DNA of 64,000 nucleotides from Thermoleophilaceae bacterium (GTDB lineage: Bacteria; Actinomycetota; Thermoleophilia; Solirubrobacterales; Thermoleophilaceae). Positions 16,304 through 30,307 of this stretch are shown here, in pieces. The stretch lies in NCBI GenBank assembly GCA_030447905.1, contig JAUJNZ010000006.1, positions 131,813 to 195,812 of the forward strand, given 5' to 3'. A program made the position numbers and the translations under genes. The notes under the pieces are model-generated. The model worked only from the letters and a program-made list of their open reading frames with translations, searched no databases and had not been told where the DNA came from. How positions within the stretch are numbered: position 1 is the first letter of the stretch; every line of letters starts with the position of its first letter.

Positions 16304-16668
16304 GGGGACGACAGGCTTCGACGTGGACGATCCGTGGGGACGGTAGCGAGCCGAGGTCCCCGGTAGGCCTCGTAAAACAACCGGGAAAACCATAATTGGC
16401 GACTCTCACGAGTTCGCCCTCCGGGCCTAGCCAAACTAGGTCCGTGAGGTGTCGGCCCGCCCTCGGCCCGTGGGGCGGATGACCGGCATCAGATAACGGG
16501 CTCGCCCGCCGCGCTCGCCCTCGACGCGGCGGGGACTTCAAGAGGGCTGGCCTCCCGCAACCCCGTCGGCACGGCTAGCGGGAGGCGAGATCAAGAGAGC
16601 CGACTACGCTCGTAGAAGCCGTCCCTGACGCGTCCGCGGACGTGGGTTCGATTCCCACCGTCTCCACC
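16304..16668 (+). ncRNA. ssrA: transfer-messenger RNA (tmRNA)
   Basis: The 5' end GGGGACGACAGGCTTCGACG and the 3' end (T-arm GGGTTCGATTCCC, then CGTCTCC and ACC) form the tRNA-like half: GGGGACG pairs with CGTCTCC over 7 bp, including the usual G3-U. Length is 365 nt. The tag reading frame runs from GGC 16398 to TAG 16428-16430 and encodes GDSHEFALRA, aligning position for position with E. coli ANDENYALAA. The genome has ACC followed by T, so the terminal A of CCA must be added after transcription. Downstream AT-poor segments should form the pseudoknots. Confidence 0.95.
16398..16430 (+). other. tmRNA tag-peptide frame GDSHEFALRA
   Basis: Codons GGC GAC TCT CAC GAG TTC GCC CTC CGG GCC TAG. 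The resume codon would be Gly (GGC) and the peptide ends Ala-Leu-Arg-Ala. The assignment rests on the only short frame ending in a stop in the expected place, on the 10-residue length, and on the ATAATT just before it, similar to the AAUAGUC before the E. coli resume codon. Confidence 0.75.
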
Positions 16669-19195: not shown

Positions 19196-19459
19196 TCTGT
19201 AACGGGTCGGAGTGCTGCATCGCGCCAAGCAAATCTGCTCCCAGCGCATGGAAGCGACACTGCGTGGTGCTTGGGCCGAGTGCTGCTTCGCGAGAGGCGG
19301 GAGCGAGAATTGAAGGCGATTCAACTGGATACCCGGAAGACCGGGAGAGCATCGTTCTCGATCGCGTCGCGAAGGCGGTCCTAGGGGAAGCTCGAAGAAA
19401 GGGGCGTCACCCAGGCGACGTCATCGGTTAGGCAGGCGAGGACCACCCTCTTGATCCAC
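19196..19459. other. gene-free stretch before the IS element
   Basis: About 260 nt of lower GC. One frame ends with a plausible helix (RVAKAVLGEARRKGRHPGDVIG, stop at 19429-19431), perhaps the tail of a lost gene, but nothing upstream in that frame supports a gene. No promoter or RNA was recognised. Confidence 0.4.
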
Positions 19460-19462
19460 TTA

Positions 19463-19476
19463 GAAGCTGTTTCAGA
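19463..19476 (+). repeat. left inverted repeat of the IS
   Basis: GAAGCTGTTTCAGA, matching the right end at 12 of 14 positions, preceded by the TTA duplication. Confidence 0.8.
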
Positions 19477-19542
19477 AAAGGACCGGGCGCTGGTCCGGCG
19501 AATCCCACGCCCGCTTGACATAACCGAGCGTGGAGGTGGCCG

Positions 19543-20336
19543 ATGGCGTCGGTGTTCGAGGTCCGCGACGAGGTCTGGGAGGTCGTCGAGCCGCTGCTGC
19601 CCGAGGTGCCCGAGCAGGTCGGACCTGGTCGCCGGCGGGTGCCCGACCGGACGGCGTTCAACACGATCGTGTTCGTGCTCGTGACCGGGATCGCGTGGCG
19701 ACACGTCCCGCGCGAGCTCGGCTGCTCGGGGGTGACGGCCTGGCGGCGGCTGCGCGACTGGCAGCAGGCCGGGGTGTGGGAGCGCCTGCATCGCACGCTG
19801 CTCGAGCGCCTCAACGCCGCCGGGGCGATCGACTGGTCGGCCGCAGTCGTCGACGGCAGCCACATCCGCGCTCTTCAAGGGCTCAAACCGGGCCTTCGCC
19901 CGTTGACCCGCTCGAGAACCGGGTCAAAGCACCATCTGCTGACCGATCCGTCGGGGATCCCGCTCGCCGCCACGCTGACCGGCGGCCACCGCAACGACGT
20001 CACCCAGCTGCTTCCGCTCGTCGATGGGGTCGGCCCCGTCAAGGGCAAGGCTGGCCGGCCGCGCCAGCGCGCCGACGAGCTGCTCGCCGACCGCGGCTAT
20101 GACCACGACAAGTACCGCCGCGAGCTCTGGCGCCGTGGCGTCAAGCCGACCATCGCCCGTCGCCAGTCGGGCCACGGCTCAGGGCTCGGCAAGCGGCGCT
20201 GGGTCGTGGAGCGGACCTTCGCGTGGCTGCACAACTTCCGCCGCCTACCCGCTACGAACGTCTCGCCGAGATCCACCAGGCGTTCATGAGCCTCGCCTGC
20301 GCGGTCATCTGCCAGCGCTACCTGCGGGCATTGTGA
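19543..20336 (+). pseudogene. IS5-family transposase, frameshifted near the C-terminus
   Basis: ATG 19543 follows a strong ribosome site (GGAGGTGG). The first 236 codons read as a DDE transposase of the IS5 family: N-terminal DUF4096-like part (TGIAWRHVPRELGCSGVTAWRRLRDW), first Asp in VVDGSHI, second Asp in LADRGYD, and Glu in VVERTFAWLHNFRRL. After that the frame ends at 20289 with unrelated residues, while the next frame continues RYERLAEIHQAFMSLACAV and stops at 20334-20336 inside the right inverted repeat. A one-base indel near 20247 explains both. The copy is inactive unless the indel is an error. Confidence 0.82.
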
Positions 20337-20345
20337 AACGGCTTC
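20332..20345 (-). repeat. right inverted repeat of the IS
   Basis: Complement reads GAAGCCGTTTCACA; followed by the TTA duplication. The transposase stop codon lies within it. Confidence 0.8.
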
Positions 20346-20406
20346 TTAGGCACCGCCCGGCCCGGGCTGAGGCCCCGCCCTAGCCAGACCTCCCGACGGG
20401 TCCCCC

Positions 20407-21192
20407 TCACCGCCCCATCCGCCGCAGACCAACCAAACACAGCAACCCGAAGAAGCCGGCCCCCATCCCCGCCAGCGCGAGCACCCCCGGCAGTGTGTGG
20501 GCGAGGCTCGGCTCGATCCCCGAGACCGTCGCCTGGCGCGCGAGCTCGAGGACGTGGGTGACCGGATTGTACTGCGCGGCGCCCTCCCCGAGCCACCCGC
20601 GCAGCAGCGGCTGGGGCGTGTAGGCGGTGGAGAGGAAGACCGCGAGGAAGACGCCCTGCTGCATGAGCGGGCCGGCCTGCTGGGTGCGGAAGATCACCGC
20701 CATGAAGACGCCCCACAGGCCCGGCGACCGCGCAGAACGCCACCGCGGCGACGTAGAGCGCGACGAGCCGGCGAGGCCGCCCGGCAGCTCGGCCCCGAGC
20801 GCCAGGCCGACGAGCAGGACCACCGTGGCCGGGACGAGCGACCGGGTCACGCCGCCGAGCATCGGGCCGACGAGCAGCACGAAGCGCGCGGCACCGGCGC
20901 GACCAGCAACCGGTCGAAGAGCCCCTGCTCGATGTCGCGCGCCAGGTTCGCGCCCGTCGCCGCGCCGGCGAAGCCCGCGCCCTGCAGGCAGGACAGCGGG
21001 ACCACCCAGGAGAGGTAGGAGTCCGTCGGGAAGCCGTCGAGTCCGGTCAGGCGGCCGAACTGGCCGCTCATCCCGAGCAGGAAGACGACGGGCGCGACCG
21101 TGGCCGGCAGCAGCGCGCCCCGGACCCGCAGCACCTCGTTGAGCCGGCGGCGCCGAGGATGACCAGGACGACGGGGAGGCCGCGGCGGTCAC
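20407..21192 (-). pseudogene. ABC-2 type permease A (frameshifted)
   Basis: Starts at GTG 21192, overlapping the stop of the preceding permease (GTGA). Pieces in different frames join into one ABC-2 membrane protein: VLRVRGALLPATVAPVVFLL and LDGFPTDSYLSWVVPLSCLQ, then RDIEQGLFDRLLVAPVPRA, after a shift near 20900 FVLLVGPMLGGVTRSLVPAT, and after two more shifts near 20740 LWGVFMAVIFRTQQAGPLMQ to the stop at 20407. The predicted protein would have about six membrane spans and belongs to the DrrB/ABC-2 exporter class. At least three indels are needed, so it is broken or mis-sequenced. Confidence 0.7.
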
Positions 21193-21982
21193 AGGGTGCG
21201 CAGGCGCTCCTTGAGGGCGAGGGTGGCCAGCGCGGTCGTCGCGATCGCCAGCGCGGCCGCGGCCGCCAGCCCCGCCCACGGGTCGCCGAGCGCCGGGCGT
21301 CGGCCAGCAGCGCGCGGACGCCTCCACCACGTAGGTCAGCGGGTTGTACACCGACGCGTCGCGCAGGACCGGCGCGAGCAGCTCCCGCGGGAAGAAGGCC
21401 GGCGCGGTGAACAGGAGCACGAAGACGAACGGGAAGATGCTCTGCAGCAGCGACAGCGAGCCGGTGCGCAGCGCGATCGCCGAGGCGATGCCGCCGATGC
21501 CGACCGCGGTGCGCCGCCGAGGAGGACGGTGGTGGCGAGCACCGCGCCCACTCCGCCGGGGTAGCGCGCGCCGAAGGCGAGGCGACGGCGAGGAAGAACA
21601 CCGACTGCAGGACGGAGAGCACGAGCGCGCCCGCGAGGCGGCCGACGACGAGGCTCGCGCGGTGCACGGGCGCGGCGAGCAGCCGGTCGAAGAAGCCGAA
21701 CTCGATGTCGGACGCCAGCGCGATGCCCGCTGGTCAGTCCGGCGAGCAGCGCGCCCTGGACGATCGTCCCCGGCACGATGAAGCCGAGGTAGGAGGTGAC
21801 GTCGGGAAAACTCGTCGAGGCCCTGCGCGGCGCTCGTGCCGCTCGCGATCACCGCGAGCAGCATCAGCGGCAGCACGAACGTCGGCATCAGCAGCTGCGC
21901 GCGGCGGAACTGGACGCTGAGCGCGCGGCGGCCGAGCGCCGCGACCACGCGCCCCTCGCGCGCCGCGCCGCGCGGCGGTCAC
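21189..21982 (-). pseudogene. ABC-2 type permease B (frameshifted)
   Basis: Starts at GTG 21982 (overlapping the ATPase stop) and ends at TGA 21189-21191. Segments in all three frames recombine into a DrrB-like permease: ALSVQFRRAQLLMPTFVLPL, GFIVPGTIVQGALLAGLTS, DIEFGFFDRLLAAPVHRASL, SLLQSIFPFVFVLLFTAPAF and the end LATLALKERLRTL. At least four frame changes occur in under 800 bp. The 4-nt overlaps with both neighbours show that the three genes once formed a coupled ABC exporter operon. Confidence 0.7.
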
Positions 21983-22985
21983 GCGGCGCTCCGGCGGGCG
22001 CGCGGAGGTCGTCCTCGGCGGCCGTGCCGGCGCCCTCGAGCCGCGAGCCGGTGACGGCGGCGAAGACGTCGTCGAGCGTCGGGCTCTCCACCTCGACGGA
22101 CTCCACCTCGACGCCGCGCTCGTCGAGCGCCCGGATGACCGCCGGGATCGCCGCCTTGCCGGCGGCCGTGCGCAGCGCCAGGCGCGTCGGCGCCGCCGCG
22201 CTCGGGCGGCTCGACCTCGCCCAGCGCGGCGAGCGCCTCGCGGCGCGCGCCGCGCCGCGGGATCGGCGATCTCGACGTGCACGGTCGGCTCGCCGACGCG
22301 CGCCTTGAGCGCGTCGGGCGCGCCCTCGGCGACCAGCCGGCCGTCCGCGATGATCCCGACCCGGTCGGCGAGCTGCTCGGCCTCCTCGAGGTACTGGGTG
22401 GTGAGGAAGACGGTGGTGCCCTCGTCGTTGAGCGAGCGGACCTCGCGCCACAGCGCGGCGCGGCTCGTCGGGTCGAGGCCCGTGGTCGGCTCGTCGAGGA
22501 AGAGCACGAGCGGGCGGTGCACGAGCGCCAGCGCGAGGTCGAGCCGCCGGCGCATGCCGCCCGAGTAGCCGCCCACGCGCCGGTCGCCCGCCACCGTCAG
22601 CCCGACGCGGTCGAGCAGCGGACCGCGCGCTCGCGCGCCTCGGCGCCGCGCAGGCCGTGCAGCGCGCCCTGCATCCGCAGCAGCTCGCGGCCGGTCATCA
22701 GCGGGTCGATCGCCGCCTCCTGGAGCGCGACGCCGATCGAGCGCCGGACCGCGTCGGCCTCCGCGGACCAGGTCGTACCCGGCGACGCGCGCCGAGCCGC
22801 CCGTCGGGCGCAGGAGCGTGGTGAGGATGCGGACGGTGGTCGTCTTGCCGGCGCCGTTGGGGCCGAGGAAGCCGTAGATCTCCCCCGGGCGGACCTCGAG
22901 GTCGAGCCCGTCGACGGCGCGGATGCCGCCCTTGAACTCGCGCACGAGCCCGTGGACCTCGACGGCGAGGCGCGTGGGAGGACAC
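21979..22985 (-). pseudogene. ABC exporter ATP-binding protein, DrrA-like (frameshifted)
   Basis: Pieces read RLAVEVHGLVREFKGGIRAV, Walker A FLGPNGAGKTTTVRIL, ABC signature YSGGMRRRLDLALAL, Walker B LVLFLDEPTTGLDPTS and the H-loop region TVFLTTQYLEEAEQLADR, all in the right order. Frame shifts are needed near 22975, 22765, 22620 and 22255. The C-terminal part (ESVEVESPTLDDVFAAVTG) is typical of DrrA-type drug or lipid exporters. It leads the exporter operon with two permeases. Confidence 0.75.
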
Positions 22986-22989
22986 GCGG

Positions 22990-23700
22990 GTGGACACGGG
23001 CCGTCGCGCCCCCGGCTCGCGATCCGCCGGCCGCTCCGCGCGCCTTCCTCCTCGCCGCCGCGAGCGCCTCGCCGCTCCCGCCGAAGTAGGCCGCGGGGCT
23101 CCGGCGATCGAAGCGGCCTCGCCGCAGGTCGGGAAGGGCTCGTGCGCGCGCGCGACCGCGTGCGGTCGACCGGCGGCGCCCCGGTCTTGGACGCGGTGGC
23201 GGCGAAGTCGGGCGTTCCACGACGGCGGGCGCGCTCGCGGTGCCGCATCCCCCGGCGGGGCGCCTCCGCGGAAGGCAGGCCGCGCGCGCCGTCCACTCGA
23301 CATCGGCGGGGTCGCCAGCGCTCGCGCAGCCCCGACGCGCTCGCCTACCGGCGACCGCGAGCGCCGTCGGCCCGCAGCAACCTCGCCGACGCGCTTCTGC
23401 GTGGTCATCCCGAGGCGACTACGCCGGGCCCCCGCGAAGGGCCGACCCGTCGGCTCGCGCCGGTGCAGCGCCGGAATCGGCGGGCCCGGCATCCTGATCT
23501 GAGTACCGGGTCGGGCCCTCGCGAGCGGCTGGGACGACGACGACTGGACGGGCACGCCCCCGGAGGCGTGCCATTCGCGCGACCGCGCGGATGCCCGGCG
23601 TCGCTGGGCCCGCCAGCACCCGATCATGCCGGGGCGCTCGGCCTGTTCGTCGTCCTGGCGATCCGCGCGCTCGCGATACCGCGACTAGCGCCTGCGCGAA
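22990..23700. other. stretch with no recognisable gene
   Basis: About 700 nt between the exporter ATPase and the carboxylesterase gene. Several long open frames exist on both strands but all are Arg/Pro/Ala-rich with no recognisable motif, as expected by chance at this GC. A decayed regulator could be hidden here, but nothing supports it. Confidence 0.5.
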
Positions 23701-23701
23701 T

Positions 23702-24351
23702 CTAGGGGCGCGCGCCCACCCAGTCGACGAGCTGGGGCACCGCGCGCGGGTCGATCGTGTGGGGGACGGCGCTCTCGAGGTAGAGCACGTCGGCTCCCGC
23801 GGCGGTCGCGCGGTCGCGCGCGTCGCGGCCGAACTGCACGCCGATGATCGGGTCCTGCGAGCCGTGGGCGATCGCCACCGGCAGCCCGCGGAGGTTCTCC
23901 TCGGAGACCTCGAAGCCGGGCACCGTCGGGATGAAGCCGCTGAGCGCGAGGATGCCGGCCGGGCGCGCGGGCGGCCGGCGCGCGCGCCGAGCGCCCAGGC
24001 CATCACGGCGCCCTGCGAGAAGCCGCCGAGGATCGTGCGCTCGGGCGGGATCCCCGTCTCGAGCGCGAGGGCGGCAAGCCAGCCGTCGAGCCTGAGGAAG
24101 GTGTCGTCGAAGGTCGCCGGGTCCGGGAAGGCCGACGCGCGGCACGACGTACCAGTGAAAGCCGCCGGGCGGGAGGCTGAGCGGGCCGCGCGGGCAGGCG
24201 CCCGCCAGGCGGCGCTCGGGGTCGAGGACGTCGAGCAGCCCGAAGAGGTCGCGCTCGCTCGTCCCGCGGCCGTGCATGAGGACCAGCGCGCCGGCCGGCT
24301 CCGGCGGCGGCGGCGGGGCGTGACGTGGGCGAGCAGGTCGAGGCCGTCCAT
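23702..24351 (-). pseudogene. carboxylesterase/phospholipase-family hydrolase (frameshifted)
   Basis: Starts MDGLDLLAHV at ATG 24351. Joined pieces give ALVLMHGRGTSERDLFGLLD, GGFHWYVV, TFDDTFLRLDGWLAALALE, the nucleophile elbow GGFSQGAVMAW, SGFIPTVPGFEVSEENLRG, the acid region AHGSQDPIIGV and His in SAVPHTIDPRAVP. This is the esterase/phospholipase family PF02230, usual length about 215 residues. Frame changes lie near 24300, 24140 and 23985. Without indels it would be an intact cytosolic serine hydrolase. Confidence 0.75.
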
Positions 24352-24377
24352 GCCGGCGCCACGCTAGCGTCAACGCG

Positions 24378-24958
24378 ATGCGGCTCGGCGGACGACCCGG
24401 GGTGAACCGCCGGCCGGCCGGCCCGCGTGAGGACCCGCTCGTCGTCCTGCTCCTGCCGCGGGCGCTCGAGGCCTTCGCCCTGCGCGAGCAGGCCGAGGAC
24501 CTGCTCGAGGCGCCCGGCGTCATCGCCGTCGACCCGGCCCCGCTGCCCTACGGCGCGGTCGGCCGGCTGCCGACGCCGCTGACCGCCGGGCTCGCCGCCG
24601 CCCAGGCCGCCCGGCTGGTGCGCGCGCTGCCGGCCGCCCGCGCGCGGTGACCATCTTCCACCCGTTCCAGCTGCCGCTCGCCGAGGCGCTGCTCGACCGC
24701 GCCCCGGACGCCGAGCTCTGGTACGGGCGCACCGGCCGCCACGAGGGCGACGCCGGCGCGCGCGCGCGCGCGCGGCTGCGCGCCACCTCCACGATCGCGC
24801 CGAGCAGCGCGCCGACCTGACGTTCGCGGCCTCCCACGCGCCCGGCGGCGACCTCGCCCGCGCGGTCAACCGGCCGCTGTTCGAGCGGATGGAGGCGCTG
24901 GGCGTCGAGTCGGGCCGGCTGGGCTCCGAGCGCCTTCCTGAGCCCGTCCCGGAGGCGT
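24378..24958 (+). pseudogene. glycosyltransferase-like N-terminal fragment (frameshifted)
   Basis: ATG 24378 opens a frame with ALREQAEDLLEAPGVIAVDP and LPYGAVGRLPTPLTAGLAAA; a shift near 24645 gives VTIFHPFQLPLAEALLDRAP and DAELWYGRTGRHEGD; another gives ADLTFAASHAPGGDLARAVN and a stop at 24956-24958. It resembles the N-terminal Rossmann half of an actinobacterial glycosyltransferase, recognised from HPFQxPLA and AELWYGR. No C-terminal donor-binding half is visible before the convergent gene, so it is also truncated. Confidence 0.5.
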
Positions 24959-24959
24959 A

Positions 24960-26416
24960 GCCGGCGAAGCACCGCCGCGGCCCGCCCCGCGCGCGCGGGC
25001 GCGGCGACGCCCGCCCCGAGCAGCGTCCAGGTCAGCGGGTCCTCGAGGAAGGCGGCGTGGAGCCAGGTGTGGACCACCAGGGCGACGAAGCCCGCGGCCA
25101 CCGCCGCCCGCGCGGCGGAGCGGCGCGCGCCGCGCAGCAGCCGTCCGAGCGCCGCGGCGAGCAGCGCCAGGTAGACGGCGAGCCCGACGATCCCCTGCTC
25201 GGCGGCGACGGTGACCGGCGTGGTGCGCGCCGCCGCGGCCGCGCGCTCGCACCGACGCCGCCTGGCTGCGGCGGTACTCGCCGGAGAACGAGCCGGAGCC
25301 GTGGCCGAGCACCGGGCGCTCGGCGGCGAGCTCGACGCCGCCGCGCACGAGGTCGAGGCGCCCGCTCCGGTCGACCGACTCGCGCGGGGAGAGGTCCAGC
25401 CGCGCGTCGCGGGGAAGGCCGCCACGGCGATCGCCGCCCCCGCCGCCGCCACCGCGGTCGCCGCCAGGGCGCCCAGCGCAGCGCCGCCAGCACCACCAGC
25501 CCGGCGAGCAGCGCCGCGAGGCTCGACCGCGAGAGCGTCAGCAGCAGCCCGGCCCACAGCAGCGCGACCCCCGCCGCCGCCCCCGCCACCGCCCGCGACT
25601 CGCGCCGCCACAGCAGCACGGCGGCCAGGCCGAGCATCGCCAGCGCGAGGAAGCGGCCGAAGAGGTCGGGGTCGAAGAACACCGACCTGACCCGGAAGGA
25701 CTCGCCGACCTGGTCGCCGGCGGCCGCCTTCGGGCTGAGCAGCAGCGTGCGCTGCGAGAACTCCCAGAAGCCGACGGCCGTGAAGACGAGCGCCAGCCCG
25801 GCGAGCACGCCGGCGCAGGTCCCGGTCAGCCGCGGGGTCCAGTCGAGCTCGCGCAGGAGCGCGAACAGCAGCAGGAACGGGACGTGGAAGAAGACGACGT
25901 TGCTCGAGCGCCTTCGAGCCGTCGGAGGCGTAGACGGCCTGCAGCGCGTAGAGGACGACCGCGGCGGCGAGCAGCCGCTCGAGCGGGCCGCCGGCCCTCG
26001 GCAGGTCGGCGGCGCGCGGGCGTCGCCGTCGCGCAGGCGTGGCACGAGCCAGGCGAGCGCCCCGGCCGCGATCACGAGGTGGAGCGGGACGAGCAGGTCG
26101 GCGGTCGTCGCGCCGGACTCGACCGGCACCCGGAACGGCACGGCCGCGACGGCGAGGGCGGCGAACAGCGGCGGCCGGCGCGCGAAGAGCACGGCGAGCG
26201 CGCCACCACGGCCAGCCCGCCGGCGCCGCGGCGGCCGCCACGGCCGGGCGGTCGAGCGAGCGGCTGCACCTGCGGCGTGTCGCGGATCTCGACCCCGAGC
26301 AGGACCGCCGTGAGGACGAGCGCGCCGAGCATCGCCAGCGCGCGGCCGCGCGGCGGCGGGCGCAGCAGCGCTCCGGCGGCCAGCGCGGCCGCGGCGATCA
26401 TGCCGAGCTCGGCCAT
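24960..26416 (-). pseudogene. O-antigen ligase/Wzy-like membrane protein (frameshifted)
   Basis: Starts at ATG 26416 (MAELGMIAAAALAAGALL), whose A overlaps the stop of the upstream gene (TGATG). Pieces show many membrane spans, for example LFAALAVAAVPFRVPVESG, DLLVPLHLVIAAGALAWLV, LTGTCAGVLAGLALVFTAVG, and the ligase loop RSVFFDPDLFGRFLALAML and SFSGEYRRSQAASVRARG. The end EQGIVGLAVYLALLAAALGR and HTWLHAAFLEDPLTW is typical of the Wzy_C family. At least four frame changes are required and the exact stop is unclear. Family members polymerise or ligate cell-envelope polysaccharides. Confidence 0.65.
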
Positions 26417-28313
26417 CAGCGCAGCGGGGAGCGCGGTCGGGGGCGGACGCGCCGCAGGATGTCGGCGACGTTGCGGGTGACCTGCTGCACGCCGGCATCC
26501 TCTTGCAGGCGCGGGCCCCACTCCTCGAGGCCGACCCGGATGACCACGCCGCGCCCGAGCCGCGAGGCGGTCAGCGCCGGCAGCGGCGCTCGGGCTCCCC
26601 GTGGCGGGGTCGAGGCCGGCGTCGGGGCCGGGATCGCGCCCGGCGCCGGCGAGCAGCCGCAGCCGGCCGCCGGGCTCCGGGACCGACTCCTCGAGGACGC
26701 GGAAGGCGCCCAGCCGGTCGGCGGTCCCCTCGAGCAGGCCGAGCCGCGGCTCGTCCTCGAGCGGCACGAGCGGCGCCGGCGTCCTCCAGACGGCGGAGCG
26801 GGCGCAGGCGCGCGCCGAAGACGTCGGTCTGAGTGGGCTGGGTGGGGCGCTCGAGCCGGCCGCGGCGGCGGGCGACGGTCACGCCGCGCCGCAGCGTCTC
26901 GGTGCCGAAGCTCGCCACCCGGCCGCCGCGCTCTGCGTAGCGGCGCAGGCGGCCGGCGAGCGCGCGCGGGATCCAGCGGTGGGGGCCGGCGAGCAGCACC
27001 CCCTCGCGGTCGGTCGGGCTCGGGTCGCTGCGCGAGGCGGCGAGCGCGAGGTCGGTGGTGACGTCGTAGCGGACCCGCGCGCGGTCGAGCAGGGCGAGCA
27101 GCGGCGCGGTCTGCGTCGCGAATCCCTCCGGCAGGCCGCTTCCGTCCGCGCCGGCCAGCGGGCGCGGGAAGCGCACGCGCGAGGTCGCGCCGCGAGGGTG
27201 TCGGGCAGGCCGTCGCCGTCGTCGTCGACGGGGTCGGACCCGAGCCAGCTGATCGCCGGCAGCACCGCGAGGATCTCCGCCCGCTCGGGCGACTGGACGA
27301 GGAACGGCACGCGCGTCGCGTGGCGGCCGTTGCGGACCTCGAGCAGGTAGACGCCCGAGCGGCCGCCGGGCGCGCGGAGGTCGAGCGGCCGCCCCGGCCG
27401 GCCGCTGCCCTTGCGGATCCGCCGCGCGCCGCCGACCCGCCGGACGTTCCAGCGGTAGGTCGCGCCGCGCGAGTCGACGAGGAAGCGGGCGCGCTCGCCG
27501 GCCCGGACCGGCTCGAGCGGCGGCTGGACGGCGAGGCGGCGCACCGTCACCCCCGGGCGCCCGGGGACCTCGCCGGGCTGCGGCGGCAGCCGCGCGGGCG
27601 CGGAGCCGCGGTTGCCCGCGCGGTCCTCGACGGTCGGCACGACGAGGTAGGTGCCGACCGGGGCGGGCTGCCCGCCGACCAGGCCGTCCCAGGTCCCGCG
27701 CCCGGAGCCCGCGCGCGGCGCCTCGAAGGCGGCGACCCGCGCGGGGCCCCGCGTCCGTGCGCCAGACCTCGAACTGCGTGCGCCGGAGGGGGCTGACCCG
27801 CCGCACCGTGAGCTCGACGGGCTGGCCGGGCAGGACGATCGCCGGCCCGCGGCCCGCCTCTCGGCCGCGCTGCGGGCGCGCCCGCACCACCACGGGGCGC
27901 GGCGGGGTGGTGTCGAGCACGAAGGGCGCCGGGACGACGACGGACCGGCCCGAGCGGCGCAGCGCGACGCGGACGCGGTAGCGCCCGTCGCGCGCGCGGC
28001 CGCCCTCGTCCGTGCGCCCGTCCCAGGTCAGCTCGACGGGGCGCGACGGCCGGGCGGCGATCGCGGTGGCCAGCCGCCGGACGCGGCCGCCGTCGCCGCC
28101 GACGACGTCGACCGTCACGTCGCCGGCCTCCTTCACCCGGAACGAGATCGTCTCGGCGTCGAGCCTCCCGTCGCCGTTGGGCGAGAAGAACTCTCGAGAC
28201 GCGCGCCCCGTCCAGCGAGGGAGGGGCGCTCTCGAGCCGCTGGGCGAGGAAGAAGGCCGAGAGCGTGGCAGCGACGAGCAGGCGCGAACACCACCCCGCG
28301 CGAACACCGTCAT
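26416..28313 (-). pseudogene. N,N-dimethylformamidase-beta-like exported protein (frameshifted)
   Basis: ATG 28313 begins MTVFARG, followed after a shift by LLVAATLSAFFLAQRLE, a signal/anchor segment. Then a FlgD-Ig-like domain (EFFSPNGDGRLDAETISFRV, VELTWDGRTDEGGRARDGRY), a second Ig-like region (FLVDSRGATYRWNVRR), and the C-terminal LAVLPAISWLGSDPVDDDGD, DVTTDLALAASRSDPSPTDR and VASFGTETLRRGV, which match the dimethylformamidase beta-subunit C-terminal family as it occurs in Thermoleophilia envelope loci. The gene ends VTRNVADILRRVRPRPRSPL at 26416. Several indels break it. The role is probably cell-surface, but the activity is unknown. Confidence 0.62.
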
Positions 28314-28318
28314 GGCTA

Positions 28319-28474
28319 CGGGATCTTGTCGGAGCCGACGATGACCAGCAGCTTGGCGTTCGCGCCCGCCAGCGACTGGTTGTCGGGGTCCATGGGCGCG
28401 ATGTCGGCGCTGCCGAGCAGCTTGGCGACGTCGCGCGCCTGCGTGCGCTGGCCCTCCGCGTAGTAGACGACCGT
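28319..28474 (-). pseudogene. LytR_C domain fragment (end of an LCP-type protein)
   Basis: About 50 residues in one frame ending at TAG 28319-28321: VVYYAEGQRTQARDVAKLLG, then IAPMDPDNQSLAGANAKLLV and IVGSDKIP. The pattern YYxxGQ...A...L followed by a final V(I/V)xGSD strand is the LytR/CpsA/Psr C-terminal domain (LytR_C). Its N-terminal part is missing: upstream sequence is P5C dehydrogenase. Its context (surface polysaccharide genes) fits an LCP enzyme that attaches glycopolymers to peptidoglycan. Confidence 0.62.
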
Positions 28475-28922
28475 CGATCAGCCCGGCGGCGCCTTCGGCG
28501 TAGTACTCGAGGAAGTCGATCGCCTCGCACACGTCCGCGTCGGCCTCCGCCCACGGCTTGGCGCACTCGCGGACCTGGAGCGCGGCGAGCTCGAGCCGGC
28601 GCTCGCGCAGCCGGGCGGCACCGGCTCGCAGCACCTCGGCGCGCTCTGGCGCCGGTCGGCGGCCCCAGTCGCGAGAGCCGCGCCCCGCCGCCTCGACCGC
28701 CGCGGCGGCATCCTCGGCCGTCGCATCGGCCGCGCGCGCCACGATCCGCGACGGCCGGCCGGGGTCGGTGGATGCCATGCCATCGGCCCGCCCGCGGTCG
28801 CCGCCCACCAGCACCGGCACGGCGAGCGGCGGCCGCGCGTCGAGCTCGCGCAGCGCCGCGAGCAGCGACTCGCGCGCCGGTGCCCGGCGCAGCTCGAGCG
28901 TGGGCTCGTTGGCGAAGCTCAT
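28475..28922 (-). pseudogene. truncated L-glutamate gamma-semialdehyde (P5C) dehydrogenase
   Basis: ATG 28922 with a good ribosome site (GGGAGG) 29 nt after the proline dehydrogenase stop. Only ~148 residues remain: MSFANEPTLELRRAP, LVGGDRGRADGMASTDPGRP, VEAAGRGSRDWGRRPAPERA, ECAKPWAEADADVCEAIDFL and EYYAEGAAGLID. This is the N-terminus of PutA-type aldehyde dehydrogenases (usual length ~500-540). It lacks the NAD-binding core, catalytic Cys and Glu. The reading frame runs straight into LytR_C-like sequence at about 28474. Confidence 0.78.
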
Positions 28923-28951
28923 CGATGCATGGCCTCCCTCGTGGCCGACGG

Positions 28952-30307
28952 TCACGGCGCGGCCAGCAGCTCGTCGAGGGACGTCCCCTGGCGCCAATGG
29001 TGCAGGAACGACTCGTTGGCGGTGTTCTCGAGCAGCCGGCGTACGAGATACGCCATGCCGGCCACCAGATCGCCCACGGGGGCGTAGGAGCGTACGCGGA
29101 GGCCATCACTGGCTAGGCCGTGGGCGAGGTCGTCGCCGAGCCCGCGCAGGACCTGCAGCTCGAGGTCGCGGTCGTCGGAGCCGCTCAGTCGGTTGTAGGC
29201 GACCGCGTGCGCCACCGAGCGCAGGTTGTGTGACGCAATCGCCACCCGCACGAGCGGCCGGGCGTCCAGCAGGCGGCGGGTCAGCTCCTCGTAGTTGCGG
29301 TCGCAGTCGGCCTTCGACTCGAACACCGGGGGCCGCCAGCCGTGCTGTCGCGCCGCCACCATCTCCTGGTCCCAGTACGCGCCCTTGACCAGGCGCACGA
29401 CGAGCGGCGGGTCGCGTGGCATCGAGCGCGCCCAGTCGAGGATCCGCTCGAGCCGTGCCGGCGAGTCGCGCAGGTAGGCCTGGAGCACGAGTCCGGCGCT
29501 CGGGCCGGGGCGGAGCTCCTCCTCATCGAGGAGGGAGAAGAAGAGCTCCTCGGTCGTCTCCAGCGCATCGACCGACTCCATGTCGACGTGCAGGTGCGCT
29601 CCCGCCCGTCGGGCCGAGCGCAGTAGCAGGCGCAGGCGCCCGGCGGCGTCCTCGCGACCGACGTGCGGCGCCTCGGGGCGCAACAGCGGCGTGAGCGCAG
29701 TGACCTTGACGGAGACGTTCGCGCGCGAGAGCGGCCCGACCGAGTCGCGCTCGAGCGCCGGCCGCTCCGGCCAGTGCCGGGCGGCGCGCCCCAGCGTGTC
29801 GATCGCGTCGCGGCAGCGCTCGGCGTAGCGGTCGGCCTCCGGCTGCGTGATCGTGGCCTCCCCGAGCAAGTCGAGCGAGGTACCGATGCCGTCCCGCCAG
29901 GAGCGCTCGATCGCGCCCAGCGCGGCCTGCGGGGACTCTCCGACGATGAAGCGGTGCCCGATGTGGCGCACGCCGCCGGCGGCCGCGGCGCCCAGCGCGA
30001 TCCGTCCGGCCTTGGTGTGGGCTGCCCGCATCGCCGCGTCGAGCGAGGGCGGCCGCACCTCCACCTCAGCGAGGTACTCCTTCAGGTGGCCGGCCAGGTC
30101 GTCGAGCGAGCGGCACGCGGGCGTGACGTCCACGAGCCGGAACAGCGCCGCCCGCAGGCGCGCGTCGTGCTCGGCCAGCTCCATCGCCTTGCGGTCGAGG
30201 GCCTCGAGCGGAGTACGCGCGTGCGCCGCCAGCCCGCCGGCCAGCGCCCGGCCGACGCGCCGGATCTCCGGCTCGAGGTCGACCAGCTCGAGGGTACGCC
30301 CGCCCAC
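28952..30307 (-). CDS. proline dehydrogenase
   Basis: 451 residues from GTG 30307. It oxidises proline to pyrroline-5-carboxylate with FAD. Motifs: SVKVTALTPLL, HLHVDMESVDALETTEELF, GLVLQAYLRDSPARL, VRLVKGAYWDQE and VAIASHNLRSV, all in the TIM-barrel order of PutA proline dehydrogenase domains. TATCTT (complement of 30315-30320) ends 7 nt upstream of the start. The paired P5C dehydrogenase gene follows but is truncated, so as read here the pathway would stop at P5C. Confidence 0.92.
   Translation of the reverse strand: MGGRTLELVDLEPEIRRVGRALAGGLAAHARTPLEALDRKAMELAEHDARLRAALFRLVDVTPACRSLDDLAGHLKEYLAEVEVRPPSLDAAMRAAHTKAGRIALGAAAAGGVRHIGHRFIVGESPQAALGAIERSWRDGIGTSLDLLGEATITQPEADRYAERCRDAIDTLGRAARHWPERPALERDSVGPLSRANVSVKVTALTPLLRPEAPHVGREDAAGRLRLLLRSARRAGAHLHVDMESVDALETTEELFFSLLDEEELRPGPSAGLVLQAYLRDSPARLERILDWARSMPRDPPLVVRLVKGAYWDQEMVAARQHGWRPPVFESKADCDRNYEELTRRLLDARPLVRVAIASHNLRSVAHAVAYNRLSGSDDRDLELQVLRGLGDDLAHGLASDGLRVRSYAPVGDLVAGMAYLVRRLLENTANESFLHHWRQGTSLDELLAAP

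Follow-up and report, generated by a model that had tools for sequence, protein, structure and literature searches.

Chimeric joining as the probable origin of a P5C dehydrogenase–LytR_C junction in a Thermoleophilaceae contig

Many relatives of the bacterium studied here carry a separate proline dehydrogenase gene followed by one for a full-length P5C (L-glutamate gamma-semialdehyde) dehydrogenase of group 2, i.e., of the TIGR01237/PRK03137 type. In the same order of bacteria, a conserved envelope-polysaccharide cluster usually contains CapD, LytR_C, FlgD-like and O-antigen ligase genes, in this order. A third point of comparison comes from MAGs, in which local assembly errors and overlaps missed at scaffolding gaps are known faults (PMC7111523). 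The window, i.e., the whole stretch of 64,000 nucleotides that was analyzed, brings the two gene groups into contact. On its minus strand, the N-terminal residues 1-151 of a P5C dehydrogenase (28922-28470) directly adjoin the ~52 C-terminal residues of a membrane protein of the LytR_C type (28474-28319). Judging from the assembled sequence, we give a probability of about 0.73 to the explanation that the joint is a chimeric junction generated by sequencing or assembly and not a real feature.

The P5C dehydrogenase piece, MSFANEP...CEAIDFLEYYAEGAAGLIDG, starts at the ATG at 28922. It is preceded, in the gene order found in relatives, by an intact proline dehydrogenase gene (28955-30307, minus strand) whose product has PutA_N and Pro_dh domains (Pfam PF18083 and PF01619, the latter with an E value of 1.9e-83). 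The piece matches positions 9-105 of the 461 in the PF00171 profile and positions ~3-148 of the ~511 in NCBIfam PRK03137.1/TIGR01237. Its N-terminal ~145 residues are like those of the group-2 enzymes and the NAD-binding region is present in full-length register, but homology ends at residue ~151 and some 360 C-terminal residues are absent, including the catalytic half with the active-site Cys and Glu. The piece is 77% identical to the protein of relative G011, which has a full-length gene, and in an alignment of ten relatives the homology holds to the last residue ahead of the joint (pattern EYYAxxAxxLxxG). Genus-mate G002 aligns to 28727-30278 with 73% DNA identity, and to much of the several kilobases that follow with 85-91%. 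Since an intact proline dehydrogenase precedes the piece and G002 matches the region at 73%, this side of the joint is native.

The LytR_C tail, TVVYYAEGQRTQARDVAKLLGSADIAPMDPDNQSLAGANAKLLVIVGSDKIP, reads TVVYYAEGQRTQ...IVGSDKIP and terminates at a TAG (28318-28316) that ends two bases ahead of the ATG of the FlgD-like gene at 28313. It was identified from aligned tails, being 46-50% identical to the C-terminal ends of the LytR_C proteins of those relatives that match best; the 52 residues have no Pfam match, and the curated cut-off of LytR_C (PF13399, 86 positions) was not reached. Compared to the cluster of relatives, the gene order LytR_C–FlgD-like–ligase is the same, but only the second half of the LytR_C domain is present, the N-terminal membrane segment and the linker also being absent, and the copy is frame-shifted and devoid of CapD. 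The gene for the FlgD-Ig/DMFA2_C-like surface protein (26455-28313, minus strand; assigned from the Pfam matches of its orthologue in G222) has at least five frameshifts, with frames changing as -2/-3/-1/-3/-1/-2 in the comparison with G222. The O-antigen ligase (Wzy_C) gene (25009-26407, minus strand; assigned from PF04932 in the G116 orthologue) has at least three, with frames -1/-3/-1/-2 compared with G054 and G116. The original prediction counted an LCP N-terminus among the missing parts. This expectation was mistaken, as LytR_C is the one domain matched by the orthologous protein of a relative, which has no LCP domain; the PF03816 (LCP) matches of the genome itself, at C4:119308 and C1:122914, are away from the joint.

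When the three minus-frame translations were read, the P5C dehydrogenase homology was found to stop with ...EYYAEGAAGLIDG at 28470. The end of this homology (LIDG) and the start of that to LytR_C (TVV) fall within ~10 nt (28470-28479), and the sequence common to both sides is at most ~10 nt. The LytR_C frame is offset by one base with respect to that of P5C dehydrogenase, and a TGA (28481-28479) is located in the LytR_C frame directly upstream of the LytR_C homology. The two genes, each cut inside its domain, are adjacent as had been predicted, but the in-frame continuation from one into the other does not exist. Past the joint, the P5C dehydrogenase frame consists of nonsense followed by one frame of the FlgD-like gene; because it is open by accident in GC-rich DNA, a gene caller would produce a meaningless protein of 808 residues. 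A functional fusion between the NAD-binding part of P5C dehydrogenase and a LytR_C domain, for which the adjacency speaks, is the least probable of the explanations that we considered: a stop codon separates two different frames, both domains are partial, the LytR_C piece being the one below the Pfam cut-off, and the loci of 60 relatives showed no joint of this kind.

The presence of GACGGTCGTC at the joint and the encoding of YYAEG on either side, both pointed out in the original prediction, were seen in the sequence. The two YYAEG-coding repeats, tactacgccgaaggc and tactacgcggagggc, are ~37 bp apart, and a short-homology deletion between them had been suggested. However, only one copy persists after a deletion between direct repeats and both are present here, the repeat search did not report the pair, and the P5C dehydrogenases of relatives lack YYAEG. 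Such a deletion is therefore highly improbable. As these relatives mostly read EYYAR(E/A)A at the position of the repeat, its occurrence on both sides is coincidental.

As predicted, the joint is located at the right edge of a frame-shifted block. When the proteins of relatives were compared with the window, almost every gene between ~20.4 and 28.2 kb showed internal frame changes, at least eight of them in the 3.3 kb of the FlgD-like and ligase genes, which are the nearest to the joint within the block. None was found in the P5C and proline dehydrogenase genes to the right of the joint. The last one was detected near 28.19 kb, so the edge of the block is placed only within ~300 bases. Well-formed open reading frames of coding composition cover 39% of the block versus 62-83% elsewhere in the window. 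The GC content is ~0.80 (78-80%) in the cluster and 0.72 in the window, and GC3 is 0.98 in the cluster versus 0.92-0.93 in the P5C and proline dehydrogenase genes.

The block is bordered on the left by an IS5-type insertion sequence (DUF4096/DDE_Tnp_1; 19459-20349, plus strand) with terminal inverted repeats. Another IS5-type copy, at C18:82276-83035, has gaps in 104 of 859 columns when aligned to the one in the window, many of them multi-base, which suggests uncorrected indels there. The genes between the insertion sequence and the ligase include those of an ABC-2 exporter (DrrA-like ATPase and permeases; 20452-22999, minus strand), frame-shifted several times, and a phospholipase/carboxylesterase-like gene (23717-24286, minus strand), which is a second copy that has diverged and shares 50% amino acid identity with the G002 copy. 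The exporter region (20412-22136) has 83% DNA identity to another genus-mate, G003, and groups with it; this part of the block is thus probably native. The proposal that the whole 20.4-28.47 kb block is foreign was dropped as a firm claim, given the grouping of the exporter with G003.

None of the relatives inspected has the two loci together. In them, the genes for proline dehydrogenase and a full-length P5C dehydrogenase are paired and have unrelated neighbors, and the LytR_C, FlgD-like and O-antigen ligase genes are found elsewhere, downstream of CapD. The contents of the genome itself were assessed by family and protein searches of the contigs of the assembly. The C-terminal half of P5C dehydrogenase was not found elsewhere in the assembly by these searches. 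The other aldehyde dehydrogenase matches consist of two full-length proteins nearer to other subfamilies, one gene split by a single frame change (C24:275560-276941) and one divergent partial match on C6 that is probably ProA, because it adjoins a gene resembling glutamate 5-kinase. The missing halves were also sought at contig ends and joined to each other, and were not found in either situation; nor did the genes that follow P5C dehydrogenase in G002 lead to any matching contig end in the assembly. A HAD-hydrolase gene is located downstream of P5C dehydrogenase in G002 and was considered as a possible neighbor of the C-terminal half, but its orthologue, on C21, has different surroundings that lack a P5C dehydrogenase. 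According to the original prediction, finding the two missing halves joined elsewhere would prove a misassembly; the search returned no such arrangement, and no positive evidence for a real deletion came from it either.

The genome has a second cluster of the same kind. Contig C24 (247732-251714) includes a genus-type LytR_C–FlgD-like–GT87–O-antigen ligase cluster, syntenic with that of G003 and with 76-79% identity to it for several proteins. Within this cluster, and in common with G003, the FlgD-like protein is short and the ligase is inverted and very diverged. LytR_C was found in the genome only on C24 and C25. The C24 LytR_C protein is complete and accompanied by its own cluster, and is a paralogue or xenologue rather than the missing half. 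The copy in the window looks foreign by comparison: in the trees, its FlgD-like protein groups with G222, a genome of family f2 (100/100), and its O-antigen ligase also groups with G222 (89/94); the partner of the C24 ligase, in contrast, is G003 (100/99). The esterase copy on C24 is likewise of the genus type, with 80.5% DNA identity to G002 and in synteny. A search for a close donor of the ligase among all bacterial genome contigs yielded only one match, of 44% identity. Since the window cluster groups with another family and genus-type copies are present on C24, it represents either contamination or lateral acquisition.

Lateral acquisition could have taken place in a real molecule. A family-f2-type polysaccharide cluster may have recombined in, or been brought there by a deletion, with both the P5C dehydrogenase and the LytR_C genes halved in the process. 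We consider this rearrangement unlikely, yet it is the strongest of the alternatives. The two pieces share a strand, which is what a true deletion would produce, and an IS5-type element with both of its ends is located at the far side of the block; on the other hand, neither an IS end nor a long repeat was found at the joint. The cluster, present in addition to the native one, groups with f2, and genus g1 also seems to carry adjoining f2-type ABC genes; nonetheless, a second CapD gene to go with an f2-type LytR_C gene was not found, the single strong match being the one on C24. The failure to find either missing half in an assembly of 95% estimated completeness agrees with their loss, but losing both at once would be unusual, and the joint coincides with the edge of a low-quality block. 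More doubtful still is that the joint is biological in the sense that the f2-type cluster entered the chromosome and inactivated P5C dehydrogenase. If this were true, the lineage would oxidize proline only to P5C, or another aldehyde dehydrogenase would carry out the second step. The claim that proline catabolism is cut after the first step does not follow from the joint, because the break is probably technical and relatives have an intact full-length P5C dehydrogenase after proline dehydrogenase.

Of the two options originally offered, a deletion or an assembly join, the evidence favors the latter. The loci are separate in the relatives, both genes are interrupted inside their domains and out of frame at the place where the quality of the data changes, GC and GC3 are raised in a cluster that is redundant with the C24 copy, and similar faults are found elsewhere in the assembly, namely a 100-N gap on C24, the gap-riddled insertion sequence copy on C18 and the frame-split aldehyde dehydrogenase gene on C24. 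The 100-N gap (C24, L086 3207-3416) has the same 55 bp on both sides, so that overlapping adjacent contigs were left unmerged. The joint resembles the chimeric contigs and local assembly errors described for MAGs (PMC7111523) in that it connects two loci that relatives keep apart, lacks a repeat common to both and adjoins sequence rich in indels, and in that the same genome has an N gap despite overlapping flanks. It differs in that our judgment was made from the assembled sequence, whereas the formal criterion for an assembly chimera is that no read supports the joint. For faults of this class, the literature that was searched offers support of a general kind only.

A chimeric join could have been generated as follows. 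A native contig that ended within the P5C dehydrogenase gene would have been joined there to a GC-extreme, poorly corrected stretch carrying the tail of the LytR_C/FlgD-like/O-antigen ligase cluster. Short-read coverage may have failed in this GC-rich stretch, and the extension or bridging of the contig may then have relied on one or a few long reads that were noisy or chimeric, or else on reads from a second organism. Bridging of this kind would leave indels throughout and a wrong edge, and the joint presumably does not exist in any real DNA molecule. A misjoin of the ordinary de Bruijn-graph type is unlikely, because the shared sequence at the joint is ~10 nt at most; a better fit would be a long read, chimeric or noisy, or the filling of a gap where short-read coverage was lacking. 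The same shortness also counts against an artefact, since it calls for a chimeric read, a gap fill or a real event. The 83% match of the ABC genes to a genus-mate, by which part of the block is probably native, the common strand of the two pieces and the failure to find the missing halves at contig ends weigh in the same direction, and the cluster may be a lateral acquisition located in a genuine GC-rich island.

If the joint is recognized as a probable artefact, neither a fusion of P5C dehydrogenase, FlgD-like and LytR_C parts nor an interrupted proline pathway will be annotated falsely as a biological feature. The gene content, frames and linkage of the GC-extreme, frame-shifted region at 20.4-28.47 kb (20400-28475) should not be trusted. 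Left of this region and of the insertion sequence, the window also includes a tmRNA gene (16304-16668) with the tag GDSHEFALRA.
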